Part shown: piece by piece, positions 20,101 to 39,820 of the stretch
How the letters are laid out: every line of letters starts with the position of its first letter
Position numbering within the stretch: the stretch's first letter is position 1
DNA from: an uncultured Microbacterium sp.
Lineage (GTDB): Bacteria; Actinomycetota; Actinomycetes; Actinomycetales; Microbacteriaceae
Direction: 5' to 3'
Assembly: GCF_945952435.1 (NCBI RefSeq)
Contig: NZ_CAMFHZ010000015.1
Coordinates: forward strand, 1 to 64,000
DNA length: 64,000 nt
Translations under genes and position numbers: made by a program
The notes under the pieces: generated by a model
The model's input: only the letters and a program-made list of their open reading frames with translations
What the model was told of the DNA's origin: nothing
The model's database searches: none

Positions 20101-21177
20101 TCAGCCGCCGATGTAGCTCATCTCGACGTGCGGGCGGGCCGCGCGCAGCTCAGGTGTGAGCAGGGAGCGGATCTCCGAGTACCGGTCGTCGCGGATCCCC
20201 CAGATGCCCGCGAGCGCGGCGGAGAGCTCCGCGTCGTCCGCGCCGCCACGCAGGAGCGCGCGCAGGTCGTGGCCCTCGCTCGCGAACAGGCAGGTGAACA
20301 GGCGTCCCTCGGTCGACAGCCTGGCGCGATTGCAGGTTCCGCAGAAGGCGTTCGTGACCGAGGAGATCACCCCGACCTCGCCGCCGCCGTCGAGGTAGCG
20401 CCATCGCCGGGCGGTCTCCCCGGGCACCGAAGCAGAGATCGGTTCGAGCGGATGACGTTCGGCGATCCGTGCGACGACCTCGGCCGAGGGGACCACGTCG
20501 TCCATCGTCCAGCCGTTGGTCGCGCCGACGTCCATGTACTCGATGAAGCGCAGCGTGTGCCCCGTCCCCCGGAAGCGCTCCGCCATCGGCAGGATCTCGC
20601 CGTCGTTCAGCCCGCGCTTGACGACGGTGTTCAACTTCACCGGGAGGCCCGCGTCCTGCGCCGCGTCGATCCCGTCCAGGACGCGCTGCAGGGGGAAGTT
20701 CACGTCGTTCATCCGGCGGAACAGCGTGTCGTCGAGGGAGTCGATCGAGACCGTGACGCGGTCCAGGCCTGCGGCCTTCAGGGCGACCGCCTTGACCGCG
20801 AGGGCGGAGCCGTTGGTCGTCAGCGCGATCTCCGGCTTGGTCCCCTCGACGGTGCGCAGCGCTGCGAGCATCGCGACGAGCTCCTCGAGCCCGCGTCGCA
20901 GCAGCGGCTCGCCGCCCGTGAGACGCAGCTTGCGCACGCCGTGGCCGAGCGCGGCGCGCGCGATCCGTTCGATCTCCTCGAAGGTGAGCAGTTCATGCCG
21001 TTCGAGGAATGCATAGTCGCGACCGAAAACCTCCCGCGGCATGCAGTACACGCAGCGGAAGTTGCAGCGGTCGGTCACGGAGATCCGCAGATCGCGCAGC
21101 GGGCGCTCGCGCGCATCGCGCAGACCCGTGGAGGCGAGCCGGACCGCGCGGGTCTTCTCGGATGGCGTGAACGACAT
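20101..21177 (-). CDS. moaA: GTP 3',8-cyclase MoaA (radical SAM)
   Basis: [19 protein letters not shown]-terminal [21 protein letters not shown], ends GG. Confidence 0.96.
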
Positions 21178-21246
21178 CGGCTCCTCCTCTCGAGGGGCAA
21201 CGGTAGCACCGCCCGGGTGGGGGAAGCCGCGCGGAGCGGTGGTCGC

Positions 21247-22368
21247 TCAGGCCTCGCGCCGGATCGAGACGTCCTCCGCCGACACCCGGAAGCGCAGGCG
21301 CTGACCCGGCCTCAGGCCCAGCGCGACGGCGACGGTCGACGGGCAGTCCGCGGCGATCGCGGGGTGCTCGGCGGTGCGGATCCGGATCCCGGCTGCCGCC
21401 GGCTCCAACTCCGCGACCGTTCCCGTCCAGCCCGCGCCCGTCCAGACCGAGCCCGTCCCGGCGGTGGCGCGATCGTCGGCCTCGTCCGCGTCGGCGAGGA
21501 CCCGGACGGATCCCGGGGCGAAGACGACGGTCGCGCCGGCTCCTGCGCCGATCGGATCCCCGTGACCGGCGAAGTCGATCCCGTCCGCGCGCACGGCGCC
21601 CGTTCCGCTCCCGGAGCCGGTCAGCCTGTTCACCCCGACGAGCGCGGCCACGAAGGGCGAGTGGGGGTGGCCCAGCACCTCGGCCGTCGCCGCCTGCTGC
21701 ACCACGACGCCCTCCTGCAGCACGAGGGTGCGCGAGGCGAGGAGGAGGGCGTCCATCGGATCGTGGGTCACGAGCAGGATCGGGATCCGGGCGTCGTCGC
21801 GCTGCGCGGCGATCAGCCTCCGCGCCTGGGTCGCGGTCTGCGCGTCGAGCGCCGCGAACGGCTCGTCGAGCAGCAGCGCCTCGGGGGTCGATGCCAGCGC
21901 CCGGGCGATCGCGACCCTCTGCTGCTGCCCGCCGGACAGGCGCGCGGGGCGGCGCTCGGCGAGTTCCAACAGGCCGACCTCCGCGAGCCGGGCGCGCGCT
22001 GCCCGCAGTGCGTCCGTGTGCGGGACCGCCTGCGCGCGAGGGCCGAACGCAACGTTCTCCTGCACCGACAGGTGCGGGAACAGCACCGGTCGCTGTCCGA
22101 GGAGGGCGAGTCGGCGCTCGGCGGGGGCAAGGCGGATCGGGCGGCCGGCGGAACGATCGCCCGCGGGGCCCGCGCTGTCGTCGAGCACGCGATCGCCGAT
22201 CGCCACCCGGCCGGTCGAGGGCAGGTTCCCCGCGATCGCGTCGAGCAGCGTGGACTTGCCGGAGCCGTTCGGACCGATCACCGCGAGGATCTCCCCGGGT
22301 CGCACCGCGAACGCCGCGGCGACGGCGAAAGCGCCGCGCTCCGTACGCAGGTCGACGGAGAGCGTCAT
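21247..22368 (-). CDS. modC: Molybdate ABC transporter ATP-binding protein
   Basis: GPNGSGKSTLLDAIAG; LSGGQQQRVAIARAL; C-terminal TOBE-like domain. Confidence 0.88.
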   Translation of the reverse strand: MTLSVDLRTERGAFAVAAAFAVRPGEILAVIGPNGSGKSTLLDAIAGNLPSTGRVAIGDRVLDDSAGPAGDRSAGRPIRLAPAERRLALLGQRPVLFPHLSVQENVAFGPRAQAVPHTDALRAARARLAEVGLLELAERRPARLSGGQQQRVAIARALASTPEALLLDEPFAALDAQTATQARRLIAAQRDDARIPILLVTHDPMDALLLASRTLVLQEGVVVQQAATAEVLGHPHSPFVAALVGVNRLTGSGSGTGAVRADGIDFAGHGDPIGAGAGATVVFAPGSVRVLADADEADDRATAGTGSVWTGAGWTGTVAELEPAAAGIRIRTAEHPAIAADCPSTVAVALGLRPGQRLRFRVSAEDVSIRREA

Positions 22369-23177
22369 CGCACGGCTCCCGGGCGCCATCCGCGCACGAG
22401 CACGAGGGCGGCGATCGCGACCAGGATCAGCATGAGCGACAGCGCGATCGCGGTGTCCTCCTGCACGCCGGCGCCGTTGAACGCCGTGTAGATCGCGAGC
22501 GGCATGGTGCGCGTGACGCCCGCCGCGTTGCCGGCGAACAGGGCGGTCGCGCCGAACTCGCCGAGCGCGCGGGCGAAGCACAGCACGGTCCCCGCGACCA
22601 GGCCGGGGGCGGCGAGCGGCAGCGTGATGCGCCGGAAGACGGTGAACCGGCTCGCGCCCAGCCCTGCGGCCACCCGTTCGTGCTCGGTGCCGATCGCGCG
22701 CAGCGCGCCCTCGATCGAGATCACCAGGAAGGGGAGGGCCACGAAGGCCTGCGCGATCACGACGGCCGTGGTGGTGAACGGGATCCGGATGCCGAGGACG
22801 GCGAGCGCACCGCCGAACAGGCCGTTGCGGCCGAGGAGCGAAAGCAGGGCGATCCCGCCGACGAGCGGCGGCAGCACGAGCGGCAGCGTGGTGAGCGTGC
22901 GCAGCACGGCGGCGAGACCGCTCGGGCTGCGCGCGATGAGGACGGCCAGAGGCACTCCGAGCACGGCGCAGATCGCGGTCGCGATCGTCGCGGTGATCAG
23001 GGAGAGGCCCAGGGCCTGCACGGCCTCGGGCGAGGTGACGGCTGCGGGGACCGTCGCCCAGTCGAGTCGGACGATCAGGGCGACGAACGGCAGCACCAGC
23101 AAGAGCACCGCGACACCTGCCGGGATCAGCAGCCATGCCGGAAGGCGCCCGCGGATCCCGGTCCCGGCGATCGTCAC
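22365..23177 (-). CDS. modB: Molybdate ABC transporter permease
   Basis: Order between modA and modC; AGLGASRFTVFRRITLPLAAPG. Confidence 0.9.
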   Translation of the reverse strand: MTIAGTGIRGRLPAWLLIPAGVAVLLLVLPFVALIVRLDWATVPAAVTSPEAVQALGLSLITATIATAICAVLGVPLAVLIARSPSGLAAVLRTLTTLPLVLPPLVGGIALLSLLGRNGLFGGALAVLGIRIPFTTTAVVIAQAFVALPFLVISIEGALRAIGTEHERVAAGLGASRFTVFRRITLPLAAPGLVAGTVLCFARALGEFGATALFAGNAAGVTRTMPLAIYTAFNGAGVQEDTAIALSLMLILVAIAALVLVRGWRPGAVR

Positions 23178-23205
23178 GATGCCTCTGCGATACGGCGTTC
23201 GATGG

Positions 23206-24015
23206 TCACTTGGCGCCGAACCCGAAGTCCTTCAGGATCTTCTGCCCGGCGTCCGAGCGCACGAACGTCACGAACGCCTCGGCGGCCTTCGGGTTCGGCG
23301 CCCCCTTGAGCACCGTGATCGGGTACGAGTTCACCGCCTTGTCCGCGGTGGGGATCGTGATCCCTGTGATCGCGGACCCGGCCGCCTTCACATCGGTGGT
23401 GTAGACGAGGCCGGCGTTCGCGTCTCCGGACTTGACCTTGGTGAGCACCGCCGTCACGTTCTGCTCCTCGCTCACGGGCGTGACGGTCACTCCTGCGTCG
23501 TCGAGGAGCGTCTTCGCCGCGTTGCCACAGGGGACGGCCGGGGCGCAGAGGACGACTTTGAGAGCCGGGTCGCTCAGCGACTCCAGCCCCGTGACCTTGT
23601 GCGGATTGCCCGGCTCGACCGCGATCTGCAGCGCGTTCGTCGTGAAGACGGGGGCATCCCCGGCCATGCCCGCCTGGGCGACCTTGTCCATGTTCTTGGT
23701 GTCCGCGGAGGCGAACACGTCGACCGGCGCGCCGGCGATGATCTGCGTGGCGAGGGTCGAGGATCCGTCGTACGTGATCGGCTTGACCGTCACGCCCGGG
23801 TTCTCCGCGGAGAACGCGTCGGAGATCTTCGCGAAGGCGCCGCTGAGCGACGCGGCAGCGTACACCGTCAACTCGCCGGTCGCGCTGCTCGTCGCCGTCG
23901 CGGACGGCGTGGACGAGGCCGTGCTCGGCGCGGTCGCCGTGCCGGAACAACCGCTGAGCACCAGGGCGGCGGCAAGCGCCGCGGTCGTGAGTGCGGGGAG
24001 GCGGAGTCGGTTCAT
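23206..24015 (-). CDS. modA: Molybdate ABC transporter substrate-binding lipoprotein
   Basis: ELTVYAAASLSGAFAKISDAF; lipobox LSGCSG. Confidence 0.92.
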   Translation of the reverse strand: MNRLRLPALTTAALAAALVLSGCSGTATAPSTASSTPSATATSSATGELTVYAAASLSGAFAKISDAFSAENPGVTVKPITYDGSSTLATQIIAGAPVDVFASADTKNMDKVAQAGMAGDAPVFTTNALQIAVEPGNPHKVTGLESLSDPALKVVLCAPAVPCGNAAKTLLDDAGVTVTPVSEEQNVTAVLTKVKSGDANAGLVYTTDVKAAGSAITGITIPTADKAVNSYPITVLKGAPNPKAAEAFVTFVRSDAGQKILKDFGFGAK

Positions 24016-24416
24016 CGAGAGTCGGTCCTCTCGGCTTCGATGATCATCATGGTGGCTTTGGTGACGGCGACGGCCTTCGATCCGACCTCGAGCGCCAGCT
24101 CCTGAGCGGCCTCCGCGGACATCAGGGAGACGATGCGGTGCGGACCGCTCTGCACCTCGACCTGGGCCATGAGCCCCTCGATCCGCACGGCGGTCACGAG
24201 TCCGACGAAGCGGTTGCGGGCACTGCGCAGGATCTCGTCCTCGCCGGGATCGGCGGCGATCGCCTGAGCGCGCTCGGCGAGCTCCGTCCCGGGCACGACC
24301 TGGTGCCCCGAGTCGTCGCGGGAGAGGGTCAAGATCCCTTCCGCGGCCCAGCGGCGGATGGTGTCGTCGCTGACGCCCAGCAAACTCGCTGCCTCCCGGA
24401 TCCGAAAATGCGTCAT
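24012..24416 (-). CDS. Helix-turn-helix regulator with TOBE (molybdate-binding-like) domain
   Basis: FRIREAASLLGVSDDTIRRWAAEGIL; TOBE-like ARNRFVGLVTAVRIEGLMAQVEVQSGPHRIVSLMS. Confidence 0.85.
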   Translation of the reverse strand: MTHFRIREAASLLGVSDDTIRRWAAEGILTLSRDDSGHQVVPGTELAERAQAIAADPGEDEILRSARNRFVGLVTAVRIEGLMAQVEVQSGPHRIVSLMSAEAAQELALEVGSKAVAVTKATMMIIEAERTDSR

Positions 24417-24443
24417 GAGAGAGACCATAGCGCCGTGAATGCG

Positions 24444-24453
24444 GTTTGCAAAC
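24444..24453. promoter_or_regulatory. Perfect palindrome GTTTGCAAAC upstream of HTH-TOBE/modABC operon
   Basis: Direct reading. Confidence 0.4.
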
Positions 24454-24665
24454 TCGGAATACCGAATGATGGAATATGTGTTCCGAAAAGTCCTCGACAC
24501 GTCCACGCCATCGTTGTTACAGTCGTCCCAACCCGGCGCCGCACCCTCGGCCCCGGCGCACATCACCAACATCGAGCGGTTCGACGTATATCTCGTGGAA
24601 CGACCCGACTCCGGGTCCGACCCGATAAGCCGTATCACTGCGCTGAAAGCAAGGAAGCTCTCCGC

Positions 24666-25184
24666 ATGAACAGCACCCCAGCGCCCGCCACCACCTCCGC
24701 GGTCGACGCCACGCCGGCCGCCTACCTGGCCCGCGCCGTCGCGCTCGCCACGCAGAACGTCCGTGAAGCCGGCGGCCCGTTCGGCGCCCTCGTCGTCGCC
24801 GCCGACGGCCGTGTCTTCGAGGGCGTCAACCGCGTGACCGCCAACCTCGACCCGTCCGCGCACGCCGAGGTGACCGCCATCCGCAACGCCTGCCAGGGGC
24901 TGGGGACCTTCGACCTCAGCGGCGCCGTGCTCTACACGAGCTGCGAGCCGTGCCCCATGTGCCTGGCCACCTCGCTCTGGGCGCGCATCGACCGGGTGTA
25001 CTTCGCCGCGAACCGCGATGACGCCGCCGATGCCGGCTTCGACGACGCCGTGTTCTACCGGTACTTCGAAGGCGGCGCCGAGGATCGCGAGATCATGCCG
25101 GTGTCCGACATCGAGCTGCCGGCTGCCGAGCGCGTCGCGCCGTTCACGGAGTGGGCGCACACCGCCACCCGCATCGACTACTGA
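24666..25184 (+). CDS. Guanine deaminase-like nucleoside/nucleobase deaminase
   Basis: AHAEVTAIRNACQ..TSCEPCPMCLATSLWARIDRVYFAANRDDAADAGFDD zinc deaminase motifs. Confidence 0.88.
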   Translation: MNSTPAPATTSAVDATPAAYLARAVALATQNVREAGGPFGALVVAADGRVFEGVNRVTANLDPSAHAEVTAIRNACQGLGTFDLSGAVLYTSCEPCPMCLATSLWARIDRVYFAANRDDAADAGFDDAVFYRYFEGGAEDREIMPVSDIELPAAERVAPFTEWAHTATRIDY

Positions 25185-25309
25185 ATCGACGGGCCCGGCC
25201 GCCGAGGCCGCGGCCCTCCCGGCGCAGGCGATCCCGCCCGCGCCTCCTCGCGCGCCCGCGACCCCGCGGCGCGTCGTACGAACCGACTCTCGCTGCAAAG
25301 GAGCAGACC

Positions 25310-26842
25310 ATGACGTCGACCACACCCGACGACGGATCCGGGGTCCCCGAGGTCTCCGGATCCCCGTTCTCCCGCACCGCCGACACCCTGCCGCCGCTCA
25401 AGACCGGCGCGACCACGACCGTGGAGGGGGAGCCGAAGAACGCGCTGGACCGCTTCTTCGAGATCACCCGCCGCGGCTCGACCGTCGGACGCGAGGTGCG
25501 CGGCGGCATCGTGACGTTCGTCACGATGGCCTACATCGTCATCCTCAACCCGCTGATCCTCGGCGGCACGAAGGACGTAGCCGCGCACGCCCTCGACGCC
25601 GCCCAGATCGGCGCCGCCACCGGCCTGACGGCCGGCGTCATGACGATCCTCTTCGGCGTGATCGCACGGCTCCCGTTCGCACTCGCCGCGGGCCTCGGCA
25701 TCAACTCCTTCCTGGCGGTCTCCGTCGTCGGGCAGGTGACGTGGCAGGAGGCGATGGGGCTCGTCGTGATCAACGGTGTGCTGATCGTGCTCTTCGGGGC
25801 CACGGGCATCCGGACCGCGATCTTCAAGGCCGTGCCGCAGCCGCTCAAGGCCGCGATCACCGTCGGTATCGGCCTGTTCATCGCCTTCATCGGCTTCGTC
25901 GACTCCGGCTTCGTGAACCGCACCGCGGGCGGCCCGCCCGTCCAGCTCGGCGAGGGCGGATCCATCACCTCGGTGCCGACGCTCATCTTCCTTCTCGGCG
26001 TCGTCGTGATCGGGATCCTCGTCGCCCGCAAGGTGCCGGGAGGGATCCTCATCGGGATCGTCGCGACCACGATCGTCGCCCTCATCGCCCAGGCCGTCCT
26101 GCAGCTCGGACCCTCGTTCAAGGATCCGAACGGCTGGCACATGACCATCCCGCAGCTCCCCAGCTCGTGGGTGACGGTGCCCGACTTCGGGCTCGTCGGG
26201 CAGTTCGACCTGTTCGGCGCCTTCGGTCGTATCGGCGCGCTCTCGGCGACCATGCTCGTGTTCACCCTGGTGTTCTCGAACTTCTTCGACGCGATGGGGA
26301 CGATGACGGGTCTCGCCCGCAACGCGGGACTCGCGTACAAGGACGGCACCTTCCCGCGGCTCCGCTCGGCCTTCGTCGTCGAGGGCTTCGGCGCGGTGGC
26401 CGGCGGAGTGACCTCGACCTCCTCGAACACCGTCTACGTGGACAGCGCCTCCGGGATCGGCGAGGGAGCGCGCACCGGGCTCGCCTCGCTCGTCGTCGGC
26501 GCGCTGTTCCTGCTGTCGATGTTCGTCACCCCGCTGACGCTCGTCGTCCCGATCGAGGTCGGATCGGCCGCGCTGGTGGTCGTCGGAGCGATGATGATGG
26601 CCCAGATCCGCGAGATCAAGTTCACGAACTTCGCCGTCGCGCTCCCCGCCTTCCTCACGATCGTGACCATGCCGCTGACGTACTCGATCGCGAACGGCAT
26701 CGGCGTGGGCTTCATCTCCTGGGCGCTCATCAACGCGCTCTCGGGACGCGCGCGCAAGGTGCACTGGCTCATGTGGATCGTCGCCGCAGGCTTCGCGCTC
26801 TACTTCGTCCGCGGTCCGGTGGAGCAGCTGCTCCCGCACTGA
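25310..26842 (+). CDS. NCS2 family purine (xanthine/guanine/hypoxanthine) permease
   Basis: GIVTFVTMAYIVILNPLILGG; GTMTGLARNAGL; SSNTVYVDSASGIGEGARTGL. Confidence 0.9.
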   Translation: MTSTTPDDGSGVPEVSGSPFSRTADTLPPLKTGATTTVEGEPKNALDRFFEITRRGSTVGREVRGGIVTFVTMAYIVILNPLILGGTKDVAAHALDAAQIGAATGLTAGVMTILFGVIARLPFALAAGLGINSFLAVSVVGQVTWQEAMGLVVINGVLIVLFGATGIRTAIFKAVPQPLKAAITVGIGLFIAFIGFVDSGFVNRTAGGPPVQLGEGGSITSVPTLIFLLGVVVIGILVARKVPGGILIGIVATTIVALIAQAVLQLGPSFKDPNGWHMTIPQLPSSWVTVPDFGLVGQFDLFGAFGRIGALSATMLVFTLVFSNFFDAMGTMTGLARNAGLAYKDGTFPRLRSAFVVEGFGAVAGGVTSTSSNTVYVDSASGIGEGARTGLASLVVGALFLLSMFVTPLTLVVPIEVGSAALVVVGAMMMAQIREIKFTNFAVALPAFLTIVTMPLTYSIANGIGVGFISWALINALSGRARKVHWLMWIVAAGFALYFVRGPVEQLLPH

Positions 26843-26851
26843 CCTCCGACT

Positions 26852-26893
26852 CCGAAGCCCCCGATCCGCGCCTCAGCGGGCCGGGGGCTTCGG
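26852..26893. terminator. Hairpin terminator CCGAAGCCCCCG..CGGGGGCTTCGG between convergent genes
   Basis: 12-bp perfect stem. Confidence 0.7.
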
Positions 26894-26925
26894 CGTCCTC
26901 GCCGTCGGCCCGGAGCGGGTCCGGC

Positions 26926-27543
26926 TCAGGGGGTGAAACCCAGCTCGGGCCAGCCGGCGAGATCCGCGGGCTCGTCGATGTCGTCGCCGCGGCCCAGGTC
27001 GTCGCAGTCGACGACGTCCACGAGGTGGCCATGCGCGGCGATCCAGGCGCGCGCCCCGGCATCCCCCTCCGCCATCGCCGCCGCGGCCGCCAGGTGCGCG
27101 GTGTCGAACACGATCGGATTGCCCGGGTACCCGCCCCACGCGGCGCGGGTCACCCTGCCGTGGCGGTGCGCGGCGAGGAGCCGGCGGATCACCGCGGCGC
27201 CGACGCCGGGCTGATCTACGAGCAGCACGACCACCGCGCGGGGAGGGGCGTCCGAGACGATGAGCGGCACGACCGCCGCCCGCAACGAGGCGGACATCCC
27301 CCGGTGCGCCTCGCGCACCTCCACGGCGTGCGCGGCAGGGCACCGCGAGCGCAGCCAGCTGCGCACGGTGCGCGCCGCGGGCCCGACCACGACCGTCACC
27401 GAGCACCCGGCCTCCACGGCGGCCCGGGCGGCGCGGGTGGCGAGCACCTCGCCCTTCCACGGCAACAGCGCCTTCGGTCCGCGGCCGAGGCGGACACCGC
27501 GGCCGGCGGCGAGCACGATCGCGTGCGGGAGCGGGGGCCTCAT
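26926..27543 (-). CDS. MobA-like / MocA-like nucleotidyltransferase
   Basis: AIVLAAGRGVRLGRGPKALLPWKG..VVLLVDQPGVGAAVIRRLL; ATGA overlap with xdh. Confidence 0.85.
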   Translation of the reverse strand: MRPPLPHAIVLAAGRGVRLGRGPKALLPWKGEVLATRAARAAVEAGCSVTVVVGPAARTVRSWLRSRCPAAHAVEVREAHRGMSASLRAAVVPLIVSDAPPRAVVVLLVDQPGVGAAVIRRLLAAHRHGRVTRAAWGGYPGNPIVFDTAHLAAAAAMAEGDAGARAWIAAHGHLVDVVDCDDLGRGDDIDEPADLAGWPELGFTP

Positions 27544-30413
27544 AAGGCGCTCTCCCCGGACGTGGGGCGCCTCGCGTCCCGGGCGACGAGCGCCGCATGG
27601 ATCCGGTCGCGGGTGAACGGCGTCTCGGTCATCCGGATCCCGGTCGCATCCCGGATCGCCGAGGCGAGCGCCGGGGCGACCGGATTGAAGGGGGATTCGC
27701 TCATGGACTTGGCGCCGAGCGGCCCGAGCACATCGGAGGTCTGCGCGAACATCACCTCCGAGCGCGGAACGTCGGCGAACGTCGGCACGTGGTACTGGCG
27801 GAGGATGTCGGAGACCACGCGGCCGTTCTCGTCGAGGCGCACGATCTCGTGCAGCGCGGCGCCGATCCCCTGCGCGATGCCGCCCTCGACCTGCCCTCGG
27901 CACTGTTCGGGGTTGACGACGACGCCGGCGTCGGCCGCATGGATCGAGCGGAGGATCCGCAGCTCACCGGTCGCCTCGTGCACCGCGATCCGGAACGCCT
28001 GCACGTTGAAGGCGACCGAGCGCGGCGTGCCGCCCCAGTGCCCCTTCTCCTCGAGGGGCTCACCGCGCCGTGCAGCCTCGGCGGCGAGCTTCGCGAGCGT
28101 CAGGGAGACGTCACCGCGGACGACGCCGGTGGCGGTGAGCACGCACTCGGAGACCGGTGCGCGGAGCAGCTCCGCCGCGAGCGCGAGGATCCGGTCCGCG
28201 AGCGCAGTCGCGGCGGCGTGCGTCGCGCGCCCCGCGACGACGGTCCCGGTGGAGCCGAAGGCGCCGGTGTCGTGGGGGACGAGGTCGGAGTCCGACTGTC
28301 GCAGCCGCACCGCCCGGGCGGTCGTCCCCAGAACGGTCGCCGCGATCTGCTGGTGCACGGTCGAGGTGCCGTTGCCGAACTCTGCCGTCCCGACGTCGAG
28401 CCCGAACGCGCCGTCCGCGTCGAGACGGATCGCGACGTGCGAGTGGTGGCCGCGCGGCGGGACGGTCGCGATCATCGCGACCGCGGATCCCTCCCCGATG
28501 CGCCACCCCGGCGCGAGGGATCCGCGGTCGCTCTCCCGGTCCCGGGCGAGGGCGTCCCGCGCGAGGGCGACGCCCTCGTCCAGGCCGTAGCTGCCGATCA
28601 CGAGGTCCGGTTCCTCGTGCGCGGCGATGATCGGATCATCGGGGCCGATCAGGTTCTGCGCACGGAACGCGAGCGGGTCCCAGCCGATGCGCCGGGCCAG
28701 CTCGTCGACCGTGGACTCGATCGCGAAGATCATCTGGCTGAGGCCGTAGCCGCGGAACGCCCCGGAGGGGATGGTGTTCGTATAGACGACGTCGGCGTCG
28801 ATCTTCTTCGCCGCGGCACGATAGACCGCGATCGACTCTCCGACGCCGTGGAACATCACCCCGGGCCCGTGGTTGCCGTACGCCCCGGTGTTCGAGCGGA
28901 CGTCGACCCCGATCCCGGTGATCCGCCCGTCCTTCGTCGCCCCCATCCGCACCCGGATGCGGAACGGGTGACGCACGCTCGTCGCGGTCAGCACCTCCTT
29001 GCGGGAGAACTCCACGCGGACGGGGCGCCCTGTCGCCATGGCCGCGAGCAGGGCGAGGTCCTCGGTGAACACCTCCTGCTTGCCCCCGAAGCCGCCGCCG
29101 ACCCTCGTCGCGTAGACGCGCAGCCGCGCGGGCTCCAGGCCGAAGACGCGGGCGAGGGTGCGCCGGGCGAGGAACGGCACCTGGGTGCTGCTGCGCACGA
29201 CCCAGCGCCCGTCGGGATCCTGCCAGGCGATCGAGCCGTGCGTCTCCAGTGCGGTGTGCGAGACGCGGTGCGTGCGGTACTCGCGCTCCTCGACGACGTC
29301 GCTCGCGGCGAGGGCGGCCGCCAGGTCGCCGACCTCGGTGTGCAGCTCCACGAGGACGTTGTCCGCGGCACGGTCGACGCCGGCGGGATCCGGGACCGCG
29401 CGGCCCTCCGCCTGTGCGCGCAGCCCACCGGGGGAGGAGGCGCCGTGCAGCGCGACTGTGTCGGGATGGTCCGCCCGCTCCGGATCCAGGTTCGCGGGCA
29501 GCACCTCGTACTCGACGTCGACGAGGCGGGCGGCCCGCTCGGCGTCGCGCGGGGTCTCGGCGACGACGAGCGCGACGCGCTGCCCGACGAAGCGGACGTA
29601 CTCGTCGAACACGTGGGTGTCGGCCGGGTCGTCGGCCTCGATCTCGTGCTGCGCGGTCGAGAAGAGCGTGGACGGGGCGTCCGCACGGGTCAGCACGCGG
29701 ACGACCCCGCTCGCGGCGAGGGCGCGGGCGGCATCGATGCGAACGACCCGCGCATGGGCGTGCGGGCTGCGCACGACCGCGGCGTGCAGCAGAGGGGCGG
29801 GAAGCTCCGACGGATCGACGTCCATCGTGTAGCGGACCGTCCCGGTCACGACCCCGGCCGCCGCCGGTGCCCCCGTGGCGCGCCCCACGCCTCCGGCGCG
29901 GTCGTCGATGTTCACCGTTCCGCGCACGGCGTCCTCGATCGCCCGGTAGCCGGTGCACCGGCAGATGTTGCCCTTGAGCGTGCGATCGAGGTCGTGCTCC
30001 GCCCCCGGGGGCATCGCCGCGACCGTGCACACCATCCCCGCGGTGCAGAACCCGCACTGGAACCCGGCGGCCCGGCGGAACCGCTCCTGCACCGGGTGCG
30101 GATCCTCGGGGGTCCCGAGACCCTGCACCGTCACGATCTCGCGCCCGGCCGCGCGTTGGGCGGGGTAGACGCAGCTGTGCACGGCATCCCCGTCGACGAT
30201 CACCGTGCAGGCGCCGCAGTCGCCCCCGTCGCAGCCCTTCTTCACGCCGTACGATCCCTGGTCGCGCAGCCAGGTGCGCAGGCACTGGCCCGGCTGCGGA
30301 TCCACCATGACCGTCCGTCCGTCGACCACGGCACTGCGCTTCGGCGGTGTCGTGGTCGCCGCCTCGGGGGCGCAGGTCTCTCGCTCGGTCGGCTCGATGC
30401 GCGTGGCGCTCAT
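27540..30413 (-). CDS. Molybdenum hydroxylase: N-terminal 2Fe-2S domain fused to molybdopterin-binding large subunit (xanthine dehydrogenase-like)
   Basis: GCDGGDCGACTVIVDG..GFQCGFCTAGMVCTVAA..GNICRCTGYRAIEDAV then GGGFGGKQE..PSGAFRGYG..GPLGAKSMSE. Confidence 0.92.
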   Translation of the reverse strand: MSATRIEPTERETCAPEAATTTPPKRSAVVDGRTVMVDPQPGQCLRTWLRDQGSYGVKKGCDGGDCGACTVIVDGDAVHSCVYPAQRAAGREIVTVQGLGTPEDPHPVQERFRRAAGFQCGFCTAGMVCTVAAMPPGAEHDLDRTLKGNICRCTGYRAIEDAVRGTVNIDDRAGGVGRATGAPAAAGVVTGTVRYTMDVDPSELPAPLLHAAVVRSPHAHARVVRIDAARALAASGVVRVLTRADAPSTLFSTAQHEIEADDPADTHVFDEYVRFVGQRVALVVAETPRDAERAARLVDVEYEVLPANLDPERADHPDTVALHGASSPGGLRAQAEGRAVPDPAGVDRAADNVLVELHTEVGDLAAALAASDVVEEREYRTHRVSHTALETHGSIAWQDPDGRWVVRSSTQVPFLARRTLARVFGLEPARLRVYATRVGGGFGGKQEVFTEDLALLAAMATGRPVRVEFSRKEVLTATSVRHPFRIRVRMGATKDGRITGIGVDVRSNTGAYGNHGPGVMFHGVGESIAVYRAAAKKIDADVVYTNTIPSGAFRGYGLSQMIFAIESTVDELARRIGWDPLAFRAQNLIGPDDPIIAAHEEPDLVIGSYGLDEGVALARDALARDRESDRGSLAPGWRIGEGSAVAMIATVPPRGHHSHVAIRLDADGAFGLDVGTAEFGNGTSTVHQQIAATVLGTTARAVRLRQSDSDLVPHDTGAFGSTGTVVAGRATHAAATALADRILALAAELLRAPVSECVLTATGVVRGDVSLTLAKLAAEAARRGEPLEEKGHWGGTPRSVAFNVQAFRIAVHEATGELRILRSIHAADAGVVVNPEQCRGQVEGGIAQGIGAALHEIVRLDENGRVVSDILRQYHVPTFADVPRSEVMFAQTSDVLGPLGAKSMSESPFNPVAPALASAIRDATGIRMTETPFTRDRIHAALVARDARRPTSGESAL

Positions 30414-31375
30414 CGTGTGCTCCTCTCCATGCGCAGATCGCCCGTGGTCCTGCCCCTCGCCGCATCCACGCCGGTGGCGATCCCGGGCAGGAGCTCGGCC
30501 AGGATCTCGTCGCCGAGCCGGTGGGTCATCGCCCGTCGCCAGGCCGGACTCCCGTGGATGTCGTCGTACCAGCCGCCCGTGCGCGAGACGGCGCGGTCGA
30601 TCGCGACGCGCCAGGCGGATCCGTCGGCGCGGACCGTGCGAGTTCCCCCGCGGGCGTGCGGCTCCGACATGACATCCAGGACGACGGGATGGACCGTGGA
30701 GGCGGTGACGGTCAGCCGCAGCGCCGTGTCGGATATGCGGCGTCCGATGAGCAGCGCCGCGGAGCGTCCGCGCTCGGTGAGGGAGATCCGCCGGAAGGCG
30801 GGGCGCTCCCGCAGCGAGGCCGCGGGGACGTGGAAGCCGCGGATCAGCTCTCCGTCGCCGAGGCGCGTGCGCGCGGGGCCGAGGATGAGCTCCGCGACCG
30901 GCGTGCGACGGAGGGATCCGTCCCGTCGCCGCACGAGGGCGACGGCGTCCCATCCGCTCAGCAACGAGATCATGGGTCCGGCGGGAAGGGCGGTGGCCAC
31001 GTTGCCGCCGACCGTCGACACGTTCCAGATCTTCCAGGAGGCGACGAAGGCGTCGCACGCCGGGGCGATGAGGTCCAGCCCGGGCAAGCTCGATCGCGGC
31101 ATCCCTCCCGGCTCTGCCTCGACGGCGAGCGCGCGGAGCTCGGCGATGCGGCAGGTCGCGGCGATCTCGAGCGAGACCGTGCCGTCGTCCTCGTGATGCC
31201 AGACGAGCGGCGGCCAGCCCGCCCCGGTGATGTCGAGCAGCCGGGTCGGCGCGCCGCGGGTGATGTCCGTGCCGTAGGAGAAGGTCACCGTGCCTCCGGC
31301 GAGCCAGGAGTCGCCCGGCCGCCACCGGCGCGGATCGGCGCACAGCAGCACCTCGTCGACGCTCGTCACGTCCAT
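30410..31375 (-). CDS. FAD-binding subunit of xanthine dehydrogenase
   Basis: WKIWNVSTVGGNVATALPAGPM FAD-binding motif; overlaps neighbours. Confidence 0.88.
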   Translation of the reverse strand: MDVTSVDEVLLCADPRRWRPGDSWLAGGTVTFSYGTDITRGAPTRLLDITGAGWPPLVWHHEDDGTVSLEIAATCRIAELRALAVEAEPGGMPRSSLPGLDLIAPACDAFVASWKIWNVSTVGGNVATALPAGPMISLLSGWDAVALVRRRDGSLRRTPVAELILGPARTRLGDGELIRGFHVPAASLRERPAFRRISLTERGRSAALLIGRRISDTALRLTVTASTVHPVVLDVMSEPHARGGTRTVRADGSAWRVAIDRAVSRTGGWYDDIHGSPAWRRAMTHRLGDEILAELLPGIATGVDAARGRTTGDLRMERSTR

Positions 31376-32682
31376 GCCGGTGTCTCCCTCGTGCTCGGGG
31401 ACGCGGCGCACGCCCGGCGCGTCGGGACGGTGGCGGCCGTCGCGGCGGGGGCGGCGGGGAGGAGGTCGGTGCGAGCGGGCTCGGTGCGGGCCGTCCCCGC
31501 CGCGCGACGCCGGGCGTCGTCGTGGACGTCGCCCGTGGTGTCGCGCAGACGGGAGGGGACCGGCCGGGCGGCCGTCGCCGGGGCGGTCGACCCCGCTCGT
31601 GCGGAGGACTCGGTGAGGATCAGCTCCGCGAGGATCGACACGGCCACCTCCGCGGGGGTCCGCGCGCCCAGATCCAGCCCGATGGGCGAGTGCAGGCGGC
31701 TCAGCTCGTGGTCCGTCAGGCCTCCCGCGCGGAGCTCCTGGATCCGCTTCTCGTGCGTCACGCGCGAGCCCATCGCTCCCACGTAGGCGACCTCTCGGCG
31801 CAGGAGCAGATCGAGCACCGGCAGGTCGAAGCGGGGGTCGTGGGTGAGCACGACGACGGCGGTGCGCGCGCCGATGCGACCCGCGGCGAGCTCCTCGGCG
31901 AGGTGCTCGGCGGGGTGCATGAGCACGACCTCGTCCGCCCCGGGGTGGCGCTCGCGGGTGGCGAAGACCGGGCGTGCGTCGCAGACCGTGACACGACGCC
32001 CCAGGACCGCCGCCGCCTGGGCGAGCGCAGCGGAGAAGTCGTTCGCGCCGTACACGATCAGCCGAGGCGGCGCGATCGTCGACTCCACGAAGAGGCGCCG
32101 CACGACGGGGCATCCGGGGACGGAGCGGTCGGCGATCTCGACCACGTGTGCGCCGCCGGCCCGCAGCGCGGCGCCCACCCGATCGGCCGCGTGCGCCGCT
32201 GCCGCGCGCACCGCCGCCGGCGGCTCGTCGCCGTCGAACGCGACGCACAGGGCCGTCTCGTCGAGGGGGATGCCGATGCCCTCCGCGGTCAGCAGCGCGC
32301 CGGAGGTCGTGTCGTGCAGGGGGAGGTCGCGCACGAGATGCGTGTGGGCGGCGGGAGCCGCGGATCCGATCGTCCGCAGCGGCTGCACGAGCACGCGCAC
32401 GTCGCCTCCGCACAGGAGACCGACCCCGAGTCCCTCGTCGTCCCCGTAGCCGAAGGAGTGCAGTTCGACGTCGCCCGAGTCCAGACAGGAGAGGGCGGCG
32501 CCGACGACCACCCCTTCCACGCAACCGCCCGACACCGACCCGATCGTGCGGCCGTCGTCGCGAACGGCCATCGACGTTCCGGCGGGGCGCGGGACGGATC
32601 CGGACACCTCGACGATCGTCGCGATCGCCCAGCGTCCTGGTTCGGCGAAGCACTCGGCGTAGTCGGCGATACGGTCGAGCAT
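31366..32682 (-). CDS. xdhC: XdhC family protein (Moco insertion/protection factor)
   Basis: RWAIATIVEVSGSVPRPAGTSMAV..GSVSGGCVEG. Confidence 0.88.
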   Translation of the reverse strand: MLDRIADYAECFAEPGRWAIATIVEVSGSVPRPAGTSMAVRDDGRTIGSVSGGCVEGVVVGAALSCLDSGDVELHSFGYGDDEGLGVGLLCGGDVRVLVQPLRTIGSAAPAAHTHLVRDLPLHDTTSGALLTAEGIGIPLDETALCVAFDGDEPPAAVRAAAAHAADRVGAALRAGGAHVVEIADRSVPGCPVVRRLFVESTIAPPRLIVYGANDFSAALAQAAAVLGRRVTVCDARPVFATRERHPGADEVVLMHPAEHLAEELAAGRIGARTAVVVLTHDPRFDLPVLDLLLRREVAYVGAMGSRVTHEKRIQELRAGGLTDHELSRLHSPIGLDLGARTPAEVAVSILAELILTESSARAGSTAPATAARPVPSRLRDTTGDVHDDARRRAAGTARTEPARTDLLPAAPAATAATVPTRRACAASPSTRETPAWT

Positions 32683-32706: not shown

Positions 32707-32810
32707 GGCGATGCGCCGGGGCTGTGACGGCGTTCACCGGTCACGATCCGCGGCGTGATCGCCAGGGATGCCCGGTAGATGGTTCGCGGTGGTAACCCGC
32801 CTAGGCCTGG
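32707..32810 (-). ncRNA. Candidate structured leader RNA (copy A) of xdhC-xdh operon
   Basis: Conserved with copy B: GCCUAGGCGGGUU-hairpin-AUCUACCGGGCA-CCNNGGCGAU and distal AUCGCC; directly downstream of TTGCCA-N17-TAGACT promoter. Confidence 0.55.
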
Positions 32811-33510: not shown

Positions 33511-33876
33511 TCAATTGAGTTCGCGCAGCTCCGAGGTCAGCTCCCCGCCGGCGTCTCCGGTGTTGACGGTCCCCTTCGGCTCGAACAGGATCGCGTGCAC
33601 CTCGTCGCTCGCCTTCGGACAGTGCTCCACGCCACGCGGCACGACATAAACATCGTTCGGGTTGAGGACGACGTCTCGATCACGGAGCTGGATGGTCAGC
33701 TGCCCACTCACGACCATGAACAGCTCATCCGTATCAGGATGGGTGTGCCAGACGAACTCGCCCTGCAGCTTGACCACCTTGACGTCGTAATCGTTGATGC
33801 TCGTGAGGCGATGAGGCTGCCAATACTCACCGACCACGGAGAGGGCATCGTGCACGTTGCGGACATCGTCTGCCAT
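33511..33876 (-). CDS. Cupin domain protein
   Basis: GEFVWHTHPDTDELFMVVSGQLTIQLRDRDVVLNPNDVYVVPRGVEHCP. Confidence 0.9.
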   Translation of the reverse strand: MADDVRNVHDALSVVGEYWQPHRLTSINDYDVKVVKLQGEFVWHTHPDTDELFMVVSGQLTIQLRDRDVVLNPNDVYVVPRGVEHCPKASDEVHAILFEPKGTVNTGDAGGELTSELRELN

Positions 33877-33985: not shown

Positions 33986-34826
33986 TCAGGAAGCGGCAGG
34001 ATCCCGCGCCGCGGCTTCCTCGATGAGCTGCAGGATCCGGGCGGCGACGCTCACGGCGATCGCCGCCGGCTGCTTACCGGAGACCTCGGGAATCCCGATG
34101 GGCGTCGTCACGCGGGAGAGGTCGGCGTCGCCCTGCCCCAGCTCCCGCAGTCGCTTGCGGAAGCGGGCCCATTTCGACGCGGATCCGATCAGGCCGATGG
34201 AGGCGATGTGCTCCGCGCGCAGCGCCTGATCGACGATCGCCAGGTCTTCGACGTGGTCGTGCGTCATGACGAGCACGTGAGCGCCGGGGGTCAGTTCGCT
34301 CAGCGTCGCCTCCGGCACGGGGGCGTGCACGACCCGGACGCGGGCGACCGCGTCGCTGAGCACGCCGATGCGCCCCGGCACGCCGACCCGCTCCTCGGTG
34401 AGCATGTCGGCGCGCGAGTCGACCAGCACGAGGTCGAGCTCGTGCCGAGCGAGGATCCGCGCCAGTTCGAGGCCGACGTGACCCAGGCCGAAGACGGCGA
34501 CGGCCGGGGTGACCCTGATCGGTTCGAGCAGCATCGTGACCTCTCCTCCGCAGCACTGCACGCCGTATTCCGTGACCGCCTTGTCGCTGAGCGTGAGCGC
34601 CAGCAGCTCGGGTTCCGCCGATCCATGCGTGAGCATCCGTCGGGCGCGCTCGATCGCGGTCTGCTCGAGGTTCCCCCCGCCGACCGTGCCATGCACGGCA
34701 TCGGGGGAGACGACCATCTTCGCGCCGCCATTGCGCGGCGCATGCCCGCGCACGGTCGCCAGTGTCACGATCACCGCGGGGATCCGCCGTGCCCGCAGAT
34801 CCTGCAGCGCGTCCAGCCAGTCCATC
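33986..34826 (-). CDS. xdhC: Second XdhC family accessory protein
   Basis: RRIPAVIVTLATVRGHAPRNGGAKMVVSPDAVHGTVGGGNLEQ; Rossmann GLGHVG. Confidence 0.9.
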
Positions 34827-34863
34827 GTCAGCCCCGGGCGCGCAGGGTGCATCGGGCGAGGGT

Positions 34864-34919: not shown

Positions 34920-37316
34920 TCAGTCGCCCGCGGTGGTGACGAGGGTGCGCTCCGCGCGCGGCGCCGGATCGGCCGACGCCTCCGCCGCCGTCGCGTCCTG
35001 CGCGGCGCGCACGGCCCAGAACACCGCCTCGGGCGTCGCCGGCGAGGCGAGGTCGACGGAGTGCCCTCTCGGTCCGAAGGCGCCCACGGCGTCGCGCAGC
35101 GCCTCGCGAGCGCTGAAGGCGAGCATGAACGGAGGCTCGCCGACGGCCTTGGAGCCGTACACGGCGCCCTCCTCGCGCGCGTTGCGGAACAGCCGCACGT
35201 GGAACTCCTCCGGCATCTCCGAGAAGCTCGGCAGCTTGTACGTCGACGCCGACTGGGTCTGCAACCGCCCGCGATGCGGGCCGTCCGTCTCGTCCCAGCG
35301 CAGTTCCTCCAGGGTGAGCCAGCCCACGCCCTGCACGTACGCGCCCTCGATCTGGCCGATGTCGAGCATCGGCGACAGGGAGTCGCCCACGTCGTGGATG
35401 ATGTCGACGCGGCGCACGCGGTAGGCGCCGGTGAACTCGTCGACCTCGACCTCCGTGGCCGCCGCGCCGTAGGCGAAGTACTTGAACGGCGACCCCTGCA
35501 TGATCTCCGGGTTCCAGTGCAGACCCTCGGTGCGGTAGTAGCCCGCGGCGAACAGCTGCACGCGCTGGAAGTACGCGGCCTTCACGACCTCCGCGAACGA
35601 CACCTTCTTGACGGGTGCGCCGAGCGCCGTGACGAAACCTCCCCCGAAGCGCACATCCCGCTCGTCGACGTCGAGCATGCGCCCTGCGACCTTCGCGAGA
35701 CGATCGCGGATCTGCTCGCACGCGTTCTTCACGGCGCCTCCGTTGAGGTCGGCGCCTGAGGAGGCCGCGGTCGCCGAGGTGTTCGGGACCTTGTCGGTGC
35801 GGGTCGGTGCGAGGCGCACGCTGTGCAGCTCCACGCCGAGCGCGGTCGCCGCGACCTGCAGCATCTTCGTGTGCAGGCCCTGGCCCATCTCGGTGCCGCC
35901 GTGGTTGACGAGGATCGATCCGTCCTTGTAGACGTGCACCAGGGCACCCGCCTGGTTGAACGCGGCGAAGTTGAACGAGATGCCGAACTTGATCGGCGTC
36001 ATCGACAGGGCCCGCTTGACGTGCGGGCTGGTCCGGTTGAACGCGGCGATCTCCTCGCGGCGCGACGCCACGGAGGCCTCCTCGGACAGCTGTCCCCAGA
36101 TCGTCTCCAGGCGGTCCGCGTCCTTCACGGTCTGGCCGTAGGGCGTCGTCTGGCCGGGCTGGTAGAAGTTGCGGCGGCGCAGATCCAGCGGGTCGATCCC
36201 GAGCTGCGGTGCGACGCGACCCAGGATGTCCTCGATGAGGAACACGCCCTGCGGGCCGCCGAAGCCGCGGTAGGCGGTGTTGGACTGCTTGTTCGTCTTG
36301 ACGATCCGCCCGTGGGCGCGCACGTTCGGGATCCAGTACGAGTTGTCGAGATGGCAGAGCGCCCGCCCGAGCACGGGCTCGGACAGGTCGATCGACCAGC
36401 CGCCGTCGCAGGTCAGCGTGGCGTCGAGGGCCTGCAGCAGGCCGTCCTCGTCGAAGCCGACCTTCCAGGAGATGTGGAACGGGTGCCGCTTGCCCGTCAT
36501 CGTGATGTCCTGGGTGCGGTTCAGGCGCAGTCGCACCGGACGTCCGGTGAGCTTGGCGCCGAGCGCGGCGATCGCGGCGAATCCGTGCGGCTGCATCTCC
36601 TTGCCGCCGAACCCGCCGCCCATGCGCAGGCACTGCACGGTCACCTCGTGCGCGTGGATCCCGAGGACGTGCGAGACGAGATCCTGGGTCTCCGTGGGGT
36701 GCTGGGTGGAGCACTGGATGAAGTACTGGCCCTCGGAGTCACGCACCGCGAACGACGCGTGCGTCTCGAGGTAGAAGTGCTCCTGACCGCCGAACTCGGT
36801 GACGCCCTCGAAGACGTGCGCGGATCCCGCGAGTCCCGCGTCGGCGTCGCCGCGCTCGACGGTGCGGGGCGTGCCCTGGAACGATCCGGCGTCGACCGCG
36901 TCCTGCACGGTGACGAGGGAGGGCAGCGGCTCGTACTCGACCGTCACGCGCTCGGCGCCGAGTCGCGCGGCCTCCTGCGTCTCGCCGAGCACCCAGACCA
37001 GGGCGTGGCCGTAGAACATGGCCTCGCTCGGGAACAGCGGCTCGTCGTTGCGGATGCCCGCATCGTTGAGGCCGGGCACGTCGTCGGCGGTGAGGACGCG
37101 CACCACGCCGGGGACGTCGTAGGCGCCCGAGACGTCGATCGTGACCTTGGCATGCGCGTTCGTGGACTGCACAGGCCACGCGGTCAGCACGCCCGCGGTC
37201 TGCTCCGCGAGGTCGTCGGTGTACATCGCGGCGCCCGTGACGTGCAGGGCGGCGCTCTCGTGGGCGGCCCGCAGGCCGACGACGGGGTTCTCCGGGCGGT
37301 CGGCGAGAGTGCTCAT
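34920..37316 (-). CDS. xdhB: Xanthine dehydrogenase molybdopterin-binding subunit
   Basis: GGGFGGKEMQ; NTAYRGFGGPQG; GSKAVGEPPFMLAF. Confidence 0.95.
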   Translation of the reverse strand: MSTLADRPENPVVGLRAAHESAALHVTGAAMYTDDLAEQTAGVLTAWPVQSTNAHAKVTIDVSGAYDVPGVVRVLTADDVPGLNDAGIRNDEPLFPSEAMFYGHALVWVLGETQEAARLGAERVTVEYEPLPSLVTVQDAVDAGSFQGTPRTVERGDADAGLAGSAHVFEGVTEFGGQEHFYLETHASFAVRDSEGQYFIQCSTQHPTETQDLVSHVLGIHAHEVTVQCLRMGGGFGGKEMQPHGFAAIAALGAKLTGRPVRLRLNRTQDITMTGKRHPFHISWKVGFDEDGLLQALDATLTCDGGWSIDLSEPVLGRALCHLDNSYWIPNVRAHGRIVKTNKQSNTAYRGFGGPQGVFLIEDILGRVAPQLGIDPLDLRRRNFYQPGQTTPYGQTVKDADRLETIWGQLSEEASVASRREEIAAFNRTSPHVKRALSMTPIKFGISFNFAAFNQAGALVHVYKDGSILVNHGGTEMGQGLHTKMLQVAATALGVELHSVRLAPTRTDKVPNTSATAASSGADLNGGAVKNACEQIRDRLAKVAGRMLDVDERDVRFGGGFVTALGAPVKKVSFAEVVKAAYFQRVQLFAAGYYRTEGLHWNPEIMQGSPFKYFAYGAAATEVEVDEFTGAYRVRRVDIIHDVGDSLSPMLDIGQIEGAYVQGVGWLTLEELRWDETDGPHRGRLQTQSASTYKLPSFSEMPEEFHVRLFRNAREEGAVYGSKAVGEPPFMLAFSAREALRDAVGAFGPRGHSVDLASPATPEAVFWAVRAAQDATAAEASADPAPRAERTLVTTAGD

Positions 37317-38788
37317 GCCGACACCTCCTTCGATGCGAGAGTGGTCTGGCTGTAGAGCTTGAGCAGTGCGGTGCCGAGCATGTGCGAGCGGTACGCGCTG
37401 CTGGCGCGGTGGTCCGACATCGGCGTGCCCTCGCCGCGGAGCACCTCGGAGGCCGCCTTCACCGTGGCGACGTCCCAGGGCTTGCCGACCAGGGCCTCCT
37501 CGGTGGCGCGGGCACGCAGCGGGGTCGCGGCGACGCCGCCCAGGCCGATCGTCGCGCCGGTCACGACGCCGCCGGAGATGTCGAGCGCGAACGCGACCGC
37601 GACGCTGGAGATGTCGTCGAAACGGCGCTTCGCGATCTTGTGGAAAGCGGTCGTGGTCGCGAGCGACAGCGGGATCCGCACGGCCTTGATGAGCTCGTCG
37701 GGGCGCTTGACGGTCTGCCGATAGCCGGTGAAGTACTCGGCCAGGTCGACCTCGCGCTCACCGTCGACCGAGGCGAGGACGACCCGCGCGCGCAAGGCCA
37801 GCAGTGCGGGCGGGGTGTCGCCGATCGGGGATCCGGTGCCGAGGTTGCCGCCGAACGTGGCGCGGTTGCGGATCAGCCGGGAGGCGAACTGCGGGAGGAG
37901 CTGCGCGAGCAGCGGGATCCGGCCGTCCAGTCTCCTCTCGACCTCGGACAACGGCAGTGCGGCGCCGATCTCGACGACGTCCTCGCCGATCGTCAGGGTG
38001 CGCAGCTCCGGCAGCTGCTCGATCGCAACGACAAGCGGGGCGCGACGGCCGCGGATGTTCACCTCGACCCCCCAGTCGGTGGATCCGGCGACGAGCAGCG
38101 CGGCCTCCTCGTCGTGCAGGATCCGCAGGGCGTCGGCCAGCGTCGCGGGGCGCACGAACCGAGCGCCGTCGACCGTGGCGTCCGTCGCGACGGTCGACGG
38201 AGCGGGACGGTCGAGCCGCTGCCGCAGAGGGTCGTCGGCCTCGGGCGAGCCGAGCGTGTAGGCGGCGTCGCGGATCGGGCGGTAGCCGGTGCAGCGGCAG
38301 AGGTTGCCACTCAGGGCATGCAGATCGAAGCCGTTCGGGCCGTGCTCGGGGTCGTGCACGGGGCACGCGACGGATTCGTCGTGCGCATCGGCGTCCGCCG
38401 CGGTGCGGTCGGCGCGGTAGTACTCCCCGGCCATGCTGCATGCGAAGCCGGGGGTGCAGTAGCCGCACTGGGATCCGCCGGCCTCTGCGAGCTTCTCCTG
38501 CACCGGGTGCAGATCGTCCGGCGAGCCGAGGCCCTCCGCGGTCACGATCTCCTGGCCGTCGAGCGCGTACACCGGCACGAGGCACGCGTTGACCGGAGTC
38601 CAGGCGGTGCCGCCGTCCGGGGTCGGCGTCGCGAGAAGCATCGCGCACGCCCCGCACTCGCCTTCGGCGCACCCCTCCTTGCTGCCGGAGAGCCCGCTGT
38701 CGCGGAGCCAGTCCAGCGCCGTCGCATGCGCAGGCGTGCCTGCGAGCGGACGGCTGTTCCCGTTCACGGTGACGGCGGTGTCGGCCAT
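37313..38788 (-). CDS. xdhA: Xanthine dehydrogenase small subunit (2Fe-2S + FAD domains)
   Basis: GCAEGECGACAML..GSQCGYCTPGFACSM..GNLCRCTGYRPI; RNRATFGGNLGTGSPIGD. Confidence 0.95.
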   Translation of the reverse strand: MADTAVTVNGNSRPLAGTPAHATALDWLRDSGLSGSKEGCAEGECGACAMLLATPTPDGGTAWTPVNACLVPVYALDGQEIVTAEGLGSPDDLHPVQEKLAEAGGSQCGYCTPGFACSMAGEYYRADRTAADADAHDESVACPVHDPEHGPNGFDLHALSGNLCRCTGYRPIRDAAYTLGSPEADDPLRQRLDRPAPSTVATDATVDGARFVRPATLADALRILHDEEAALLVAGSTDWGVEVNIRGRRAPLVVAIEQLPELRTLTIGEDVVEIGAALPLSEVERRLDGRIPLLAQLLPQFASRLIRNRATFGGNLGTGSPIGDTPPALLALRARVVLASVDGEREVDLAEYFTGYRQTVKRPDELIKAVRIPLSLATTTAFHKIAKRRFDDISSVAVAFALDISGGVVTGATIGLGGVAATPLRARATEEALVGKPWDVATVKAASEVLRGEGTPMSDHRASSAYRSHMLGTALLKLYSQTTLASKEVSA

Positions 38789-38810
38789 TGGTTCTCCTCG
38801 CGCCAGGTGG

Positions 38811-38917
38811 GGCGATGCGTGGAGGCCAGAAGGGTAGTCGGGACCCGGAGCATGAGCCTCGGCGGCATCGCCGTGGTCTGCCCGGTAGATGATCCGTTTC
38901 CGAACCCGCCTAGGCGT
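38811..38917 (-). ncRNA. Candidate structured leader RNA (copy B) of xdhAB operon
   Basis: Same conserved segments as copy A; inner hairpin closes with GAAA tetraloop; distal GGCGAUGC/GCAUCGCC helix. Confidence 0.55.
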
Positions 38918-38923
38918 GCCGAC

Positions 38924-38953
38924 AGCCTAACCCGGGCTGCACGGACGTGGCAA
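38924..38953 (-). promoter_or_regulatory. Sigma70-type promoter TTGCCA-N18-TAGGCT of xdhAB operon
   Basis: Direct reading; conserved with 32815-32843. Confidence 0.6.
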
Positions 38954-38971: not shown

Positions 38972-38998
38972 GATTTCCACATCCGCTGGGCGGAAATC
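38972..38998. promoter_or_regulatory. IclR-like operator GATTTCCAC-N9-GCGGAAATC
   Basis: Imperfect inverted repeat just upstream of the xdhAB promoter, next to the iclR gene. Confidence 0.5.
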
Positions 38999-39031: not shown

Positions 39032-39784
39032 TCACGCGGCGGCGGCGGCCGAGATCTCCGCGGCGATCTCGTGCAGGACCGGCACGGCGCGATCCGCGAG
39101 CCCCTCGTCCGCTCGCGACATCGGCAGCGAGATCGAGAGCGCCGTGGGCGTCGGCATCCGCGGGACGATCACGGCGTAGCAACGCACCCCGACCTCGTGC
39201 TCGCCGTCGTCGATCGCGTGACCGCGCTCGCGCGTGCGCTCGAGCTATGCAAGCAGCTCGTCGAGCGCCGTGATGCTCCGCGGCGTCGAGGCGGGAAGAC
39301 CCGTGCGGGCGGCGAGCGCACGCACCTGCTGCTCGGGCAGCTCCGCGAGCAAGGCCTTTCCGACCGCGGTCGAGTGCAGCTGCGCCCGTCCGCCCACCTC
39401 CGTGAACATGCGCATGGCGTGGGGCGACGGCGCCTGGGAGACGTACACGACCCGGTCGTCGTCGAGCGTCGCAAGGTTGGCGGTCTCTCCGAGGCGGTGC
39501 ACGAGGTCCTTCAGCTGGGGCATCGCGATCGCGCCGAACTGACGGTTGGCGATCTCGCCGAGCCGCACGAGGCGCGGGCCGAGCGCGTAGCGCCGATCCG
39601 ACAGCTGTCGCACGGCGCCGCACTCGATGAGCGTCTGCAGCAGCCGGTGCGTCGTCGTCAGCGGGAGCCCGGCCTGCGCCGAGATCTCGCTGATCGTGAG
39701 CAGGCCGCCGGCTCCGGCGACGAGCTCGAGCAGCTCGAAGACCCGCGTCACGGACTGCACGGTGGTGGGTGCCTTGGCGGCCAT
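39032..39784 (-). pseudogene. IclR family regulator interrupted by in-frame TAG (39245-39247)
   Basis: N-terminal IclR HTH and effector domain (39248-39784), then same frame continues LERTRERGHAIDDGEHEVGVRCYAVIVPR..TGA. Confidence 0.85.
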
Positions 39785-39796
39785 CGCGACCCTTTC

Positions 39797-39820
39797 GATG
39801 CGGAGGAGCACATCCGCATC
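39797..39820. promoter_or_regulatory. Inverted repeat GATGCGGA-N8-TCCGCATC in the iclR 5' region
   Basis: Perfect 8-bp arms, 12 bp upstream of the iclR start. Confidence 0.5.

Follow-up and report, generated by a model that had tools for sequence, protein, structure and literature searches.

The window, the whole 64,000-nucleotide stretch of Microbacterium DNA that was analysed, carries two molybdenum hydroxylase operons on its minus strand. Operon A consists of xdhC (XdhC/CoxI family; 31366..32682), a FAD subunit, a fused 2Fe-2S/molybdopterin subunit and a MobA-like protein. Operon B encodes a xanthine dehydrogenase, being composed of xdhA (small subunit, FAD and 2Fe-2S; 37313..38788), xdhB (molybdopterin subunit, matching TIGR02965 above the NCBIfam cut-off; 34920..37316) and a second XdhC (TIGR02964 above cut-off; 33986..34852), and ending with a small cupin protein (33511-33876, minus strand). 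The two operons are usually adjacent in relatives. Beside operon A lies a molybdenum island (20101-27561) harbouring moaA-, modB- and modA-like genes (names assigned from translations), a MerR/TOBE regulator and a MobA-like protein, along with a Xan_ur (xanthine/uracil-type) permease and a cytidine/guanine-type deaminase. Upstream of xdhA, a gene for an IclR-family regulator (39034-39811, minus strand) contains an in-frame stop (39245-39247); relatives have intact homologues of about 255 aa, and the interrupted gene is either a pseudogene or the product of a sequencing error.

Each operon is preceded by a copy of the same leader, read on the minus strand. Before xdhA (copy B), the promoter comprises a -35 hexamer TTGCCA (38948..38953), common to copy A and resembling the promoters of other species, and, after 18 nt, a -10 hexamer TAGGCT (38924..38929), which is TAGAAT in most relatives. 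These are followed by the 5' conserved block GCCTAGGCGGGTT (38903..38915; first 12 nt invariant in 20/20 members), the hairpin P2 (GGUUCG-GAAA-CGGAUC; 38891..38906) and the 3' conserved block ATCTACCGGGCA (38879..38890; invariant in 20/20). Further downstream, the local hairpin P3 (GGCG-AUGC-CGCC; 38861..38872) forms the apex of an alternative hairpin with the descending arm CCGGGUCC (38841..38848). The long-range helix P4 has its 5' arm GGCGAUGC (GGCGATGC in DNA) at 38865..38872 and its 3' arm GCAUCGCC (GCATCGCC in DNA) at 38811..38818, the latter doubling as the 5' strand of a hairpin in which the Shine-Dalgarno sequence (GAGGAG; 38794..38799) of xdhA is paired; the ATG of xdhA stands at 38788. 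Before xdhC (copy A), the corresponding elements are the blocks GCCTAGGCGGGTT (32794..32806) and ATCTACCGGGCA (32769..32780), P2 (GGUU-ACCACCGCG-AACC; 32781..32797) and the P4 arms GGCGAU (32758..32763) and AUCGCC (32707..32712), the latter overlapping a hairpin that pairs the Shine-Dalgarno region. A preliminary description of this DNA had placed the promoter, blocks, hairpin and P4 arms of copy B correctly, and the two copies do differ in hairpin sequence and spacer length, as it claimed. Its distance of about 125 nt from the predicted +1 to the start codon in both operons agrees with the 127 nt (copy B) and 124 nt (copy A) counted from GCC to ATG. Folding of the copy A core was no better than that of shuffles (z 0.79).

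The exact 12-mer ATCTACCGGGCA occurs twice in the 2.92-Mb genome, as copies A and B; allowing up to one mismatch, two occurrences were found in the window against 0.15 expected by chance. A gapped-pattern search returned 11 sites in 10/198 same-genus genomes, and a covariance-model search 20 real sites in 19/369 Microbacterium genomes, the weaker matches in Microbacterium genomes lacking the core themselves. Recurrence in 19 genomes places the motif far beyond chance. No real member was found outside the genus in samples of the family (400 genomes), order (317) and phylum (397): the family and order matches lacked the core and were due to chance, and none turned up in the phylum. Scanned with a 20-base core, about 85,000 species genomes yielded Microbacterium, MAGs matching loci of the genus and two chance matches (L048 and L052) without hairpin or context, and no match was found among the plasmids or viruses searched. 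Since all members lie within one genus, they record few independent changes. About 24 nucleotides around P2, where the transcript is predicted to begin, are invariant; on either side of this variable hairpin stand the invariant blocks GCCUAGGCGGGU and AUCUACCGGGCA.

In all other species the gene behind the leader is the xdhC of operon A. A protein search of 298 genomes placed 15/15 close orthologues of this XdhC behind the motif, whereas the next relatives, about 39-46% identical over most of the protein, are without it; the element therefore travels with one operon. Upstream of xdhA, the motif was not found in relatives whose upstream regions were readable, and a leader before every xdhAB operon is accordingly rejected. 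These orthologous xdhAB upstream regions are the place where the preliminary description had proposed to look for covariation; covariation is seen across the motif-bearing species. Given these motif-free xdhA regions, and the promoter and leader sequence common to A and B, copy B looks like a duplicate of promoter and leader put before xdhAB and private to this lineage. Three species (L096, L098, L099) carry another conserved leader before xdhA, unlike copy B, which contains a TTTCCGTATACCGGAAA-like operator, AATCTACTGGCGG and GGGCCTAGGCTCCG.

Counted from GCC to the start codon, the leader is short (73-83 nt) in seven members and long (124-181 nt) in the others. In both kinds, the invariant blocks are 10, 13, 14 or 15 nt apart, and a hairpin forms at every length. 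P2 reads GGUU-5 nt-AACC in five short leaders; other forms are GGUUAC-GACA-GU(g)AACC, GGUUGC-GACA-GC(ag)AACC and, in G601, GGUCAC-GCAC-GUGAACU, and among the long leaders one pair of P2 is A-U seven times and G-C four times. P4 (GGCGRUG with CAYCGCC) is present in 13/13 long leaders, with arms whose distance differs by tens of nucleotides. At its middle pair, seven leaders have G-C, four A-U and two G-U, so that the long-range alternative helix proposed earlier is retained throughout in all three versions. P4 is paired in 98.9% of cells over the 13 long leaders; for P2 and P4 together the value is 97.6%, compared with 31-71% after sliding the partners. On the XdhC tree, one row of which (G166) suffers from a frame break, at least three changes of the P4 pair are seen, the A-U copy A standing among G-C members. 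P3 is GGCG/CGCC, or the compensated GCAGCG/CGCUGC in G634 and G166. P2, P3 and P4 thus covary over the 20 sites, and the 5' leader holds a conserved structured domain, as is asked of a riboswitch. The preliminary view of an RNA element, more than a palindrome, is borne out by the covariation of P2 and GGCGRUG/CAYCGCC across species: conservation is not confined to CGCCTAGGCG, the hairpin and P4 pairing being kept as well. The leader is very probably a functional cis-acting RNA. No description of such an RNA was found in the literature sources searched; the structured leader is real, and was not found described in those sources.

Within the leader, the 3' invariant block can also pair with a CCCGG beyond P3, forming the alternative hairpin CCGGG..P3..CCCGG, which is the local minimum-energy fold in 19/20 members. 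The preliminary description had included neither this hairpin nor its covering of the Shine-Dalgarno sequence in the seven short leaders, and it also lacked the leaderless xdhAB orthologues and the operator upstream of the promoter. In the short leaders the hairpin extends into the Shine-Dalgarno sequence (AUCUACCGGG with CCCGGAGGU). Compared with shuffles, the energy of its outer arm is individually convincing only in five short leaders. In all seven, the unpaired value of the Shine-Dalgarno sequence is 0.00-0.15 when the leader folds freely against 0.43-0.67 with the conserved domain imposed, and shuffling the intervening sequence leaves a shift of only -0.01 to 0.09. In the long leaders, the 3' arm of P4 also folds onto the Shine-Dalgarno region, and removing or occupying this arm frees the Shine-Dalgarno sequence in 11/13 (mean +0.21; other windows +0.03). 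Computation therefore shows a competing expression platform in the seven short leaders and, through the P4 arm, in 11/13 long leaders. With the conserved domain imposed, whole long leaders changed their Shine-Dalgarno accessibility in no consistent direction, and the ON direction suggested for copies A and B is accordingly drawn by analogy. Relative to the free ensemble, the conserved fold is about 4-17 kcal/mol less favourable, and hence needs a ligand, a protein or cotranscriptional folding. Two other kinds of switch were ruled out in the 20 leaders inspected: a leader-peptide attenuator, since no start codon or frame is conserved, and an intrinsic-terminator switch, since in none of them is the alternative hairpin followed by a run of U.

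The pattern of conservation and pairing points to a riboswitch-like translational ON switch, which is the probable role of this structured 5' mRNA leader of a molybdenum hydroxylase operon; that the ON switch answers to a small molecule is likewise somewhat favoured. The conserved domain would fold, probably around a ligand, and thereby block the alternative hairpin. In short leaders the Shine-Dalgarno sequence would then be freed directly. In long leaders, including A and B, P4 competes with the alternative hairpin, its 3' arm being the strand that hides the Shine-Dalgarno sequence, which would thus be freed through P4. In either case the molybdenum-enzyme genes would be translated, and copy B, as a presumed duplicate of promoter and leader, would have been set before xdhAB in this lineage. 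The leader may be regarded as working like a riboswitch that falls in no described class, with ligand binding as a candidate property. A purine/xanthine or a molybdenum-cofactor signal can be guessed from the controlled genes only. The most specific reading, a new riboswitch class that senses an oxidised purine (xanthine/urate) or Moco, activates Microbacterium molybdenum hydroxylase genes and, through a recent duplication, came to place another operon, that of xanthine dehydrogenase, under the same control by RNA, is advanced tentatively, with slightly more doubt than confidence.

A protein, for example XdhC itself or an RNA-binding regulator, might bind the conserved domain in place of a small molecule. 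Covariation and conservation do not tell a ligand from a protein, and the tight link to one XdhC orthologue would fit autoregulation. Nevertheless, the scanned operon proteins contain no RNA-binding domain, and copy B precedes another operon, which has a different XdhC of its own. Furthermore, some 24 invariant nucleotides in a compact fold are typical of small-molecule aptamers. Binding by a protein is, on balance, unlikely.

The sign of the switch depends in part on the helix within the core. The preliminary description had drawn a stem P1 (GCC-GG/CC-GGC), and if P1 were the aptamer stem, ligand binding would block P4 and the long leaders would be OFF switches. The pairs of P1 hold in 13/13 long leaders, and its CC is invariant even in G616, whose alternative hairpin can do without CC. 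However, P1 shows no covariation, and G634 and G166 lack one of its pairs, while they keep the local hairpin on the same strand by compensatory change; moreover, the same operon would be ON with short leaders and OFF with long ones. This opposite logic is distinctly improbable. Inside the invariant blocks, GCCU and GG could instead pair with CC and GGGC as an alternative inner helix. Both helices are compatible with the long leaders because none of their bases varies, and covariation cannot choose the core helix, since the inner helix never varies; the two fit equally well, and P1 is one of two candidates. The alternative inner helix permits the domain and P4 to form together, with the same sign in both leader types, which P1 would not.

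Upstream of the leader, a TCCG-N5-CGGA palindrome is present at 38982-38994 of the window and in the homologous promoter regions L023-L040. In several relatives there are two such palindromes with a 21-bp spacing, lying about 53 and 74 bp upstream of the leader, and copy B carries one; the palindrome resembles an IclR-type operator, which would exert a separate control on transcription. The idea that the conserved blocks are themselves transcription-factor DNA operators just downstream of +1, with incidental pairing, draws on the perfect palindrome GCCTAGGC at the transcription start and on the existence of this upstream operator, but it is very improbable, as a rigid DNA operator fails to explain the leader pattern: the distance between the blocks changes by up to 5 bp (half a turn) with hairpin pairing kept, the P4 arms covary across a variable distance, the conservation of AUCUACCGGGCA, not itself palindromic, fits poorly, and the upstream operator pair, in contrast, holds its 21-bp spacing where both sites match.

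Among known RNA classes, a search of Rfam 15 at gathering thresholds gave 0 matches in the window, and a permissive cmscan against all Rfam families gave chance-level matches only, none of them to the NMT1 or Moco models. NMT1/xanthine-I, xanthine-II and the Moco motif are the nearest by gene association, and they differ in fold and taxonomic range. Xanthine-I (NMT1) is a compact rod-like hairpin with highly conserved junction nucleotides (PMC7373994, PMC8266621). It has these features in common with the Microbacterium leader, as well as control at the ribosome-binding site without an intrinsic terminator and an association with purine-oxidation genes (PMC7373994, PMC8266621); however, it is an OFF switch restricted to Proteobacteria, with different genes, and the leader has no match to its covariance model. 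The Moco RNA motif is likewise a leader of Moco-metabolism and Moco-enzyme genes, with GNRA tetraloops and some translational platforms (PMC2408646), but it is a multistem junction with up to five helices, the present leader has no match to its covariance model, and it precedes only molybdenum-enzyme operons and not the nearby moa/mod genes. Among the guanine-riboswitch variants, some members of xanthine-II stand before xanthine dehydrogenase genes (PMC9295807), whereas the three-stem junction of the purine riboswitches has no counterpart in the Microbacterium leader, which has neither such a fold nor an Rfam match.

One conserved domain is thus joined to two natural expression platforms, with 73-83 nt or 124-181 nt between core and start codon, and this makes the identity of the ligand and the sign of the switch testable with small constructs. 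If true, the proposed switch would add a rare riboswitch class, restricted in lineage and linked to purine oxidation and molybdenum enzymes, whose leader would have been copied, with compensatory changes, before a second operon in one lineage of Microbacterium.
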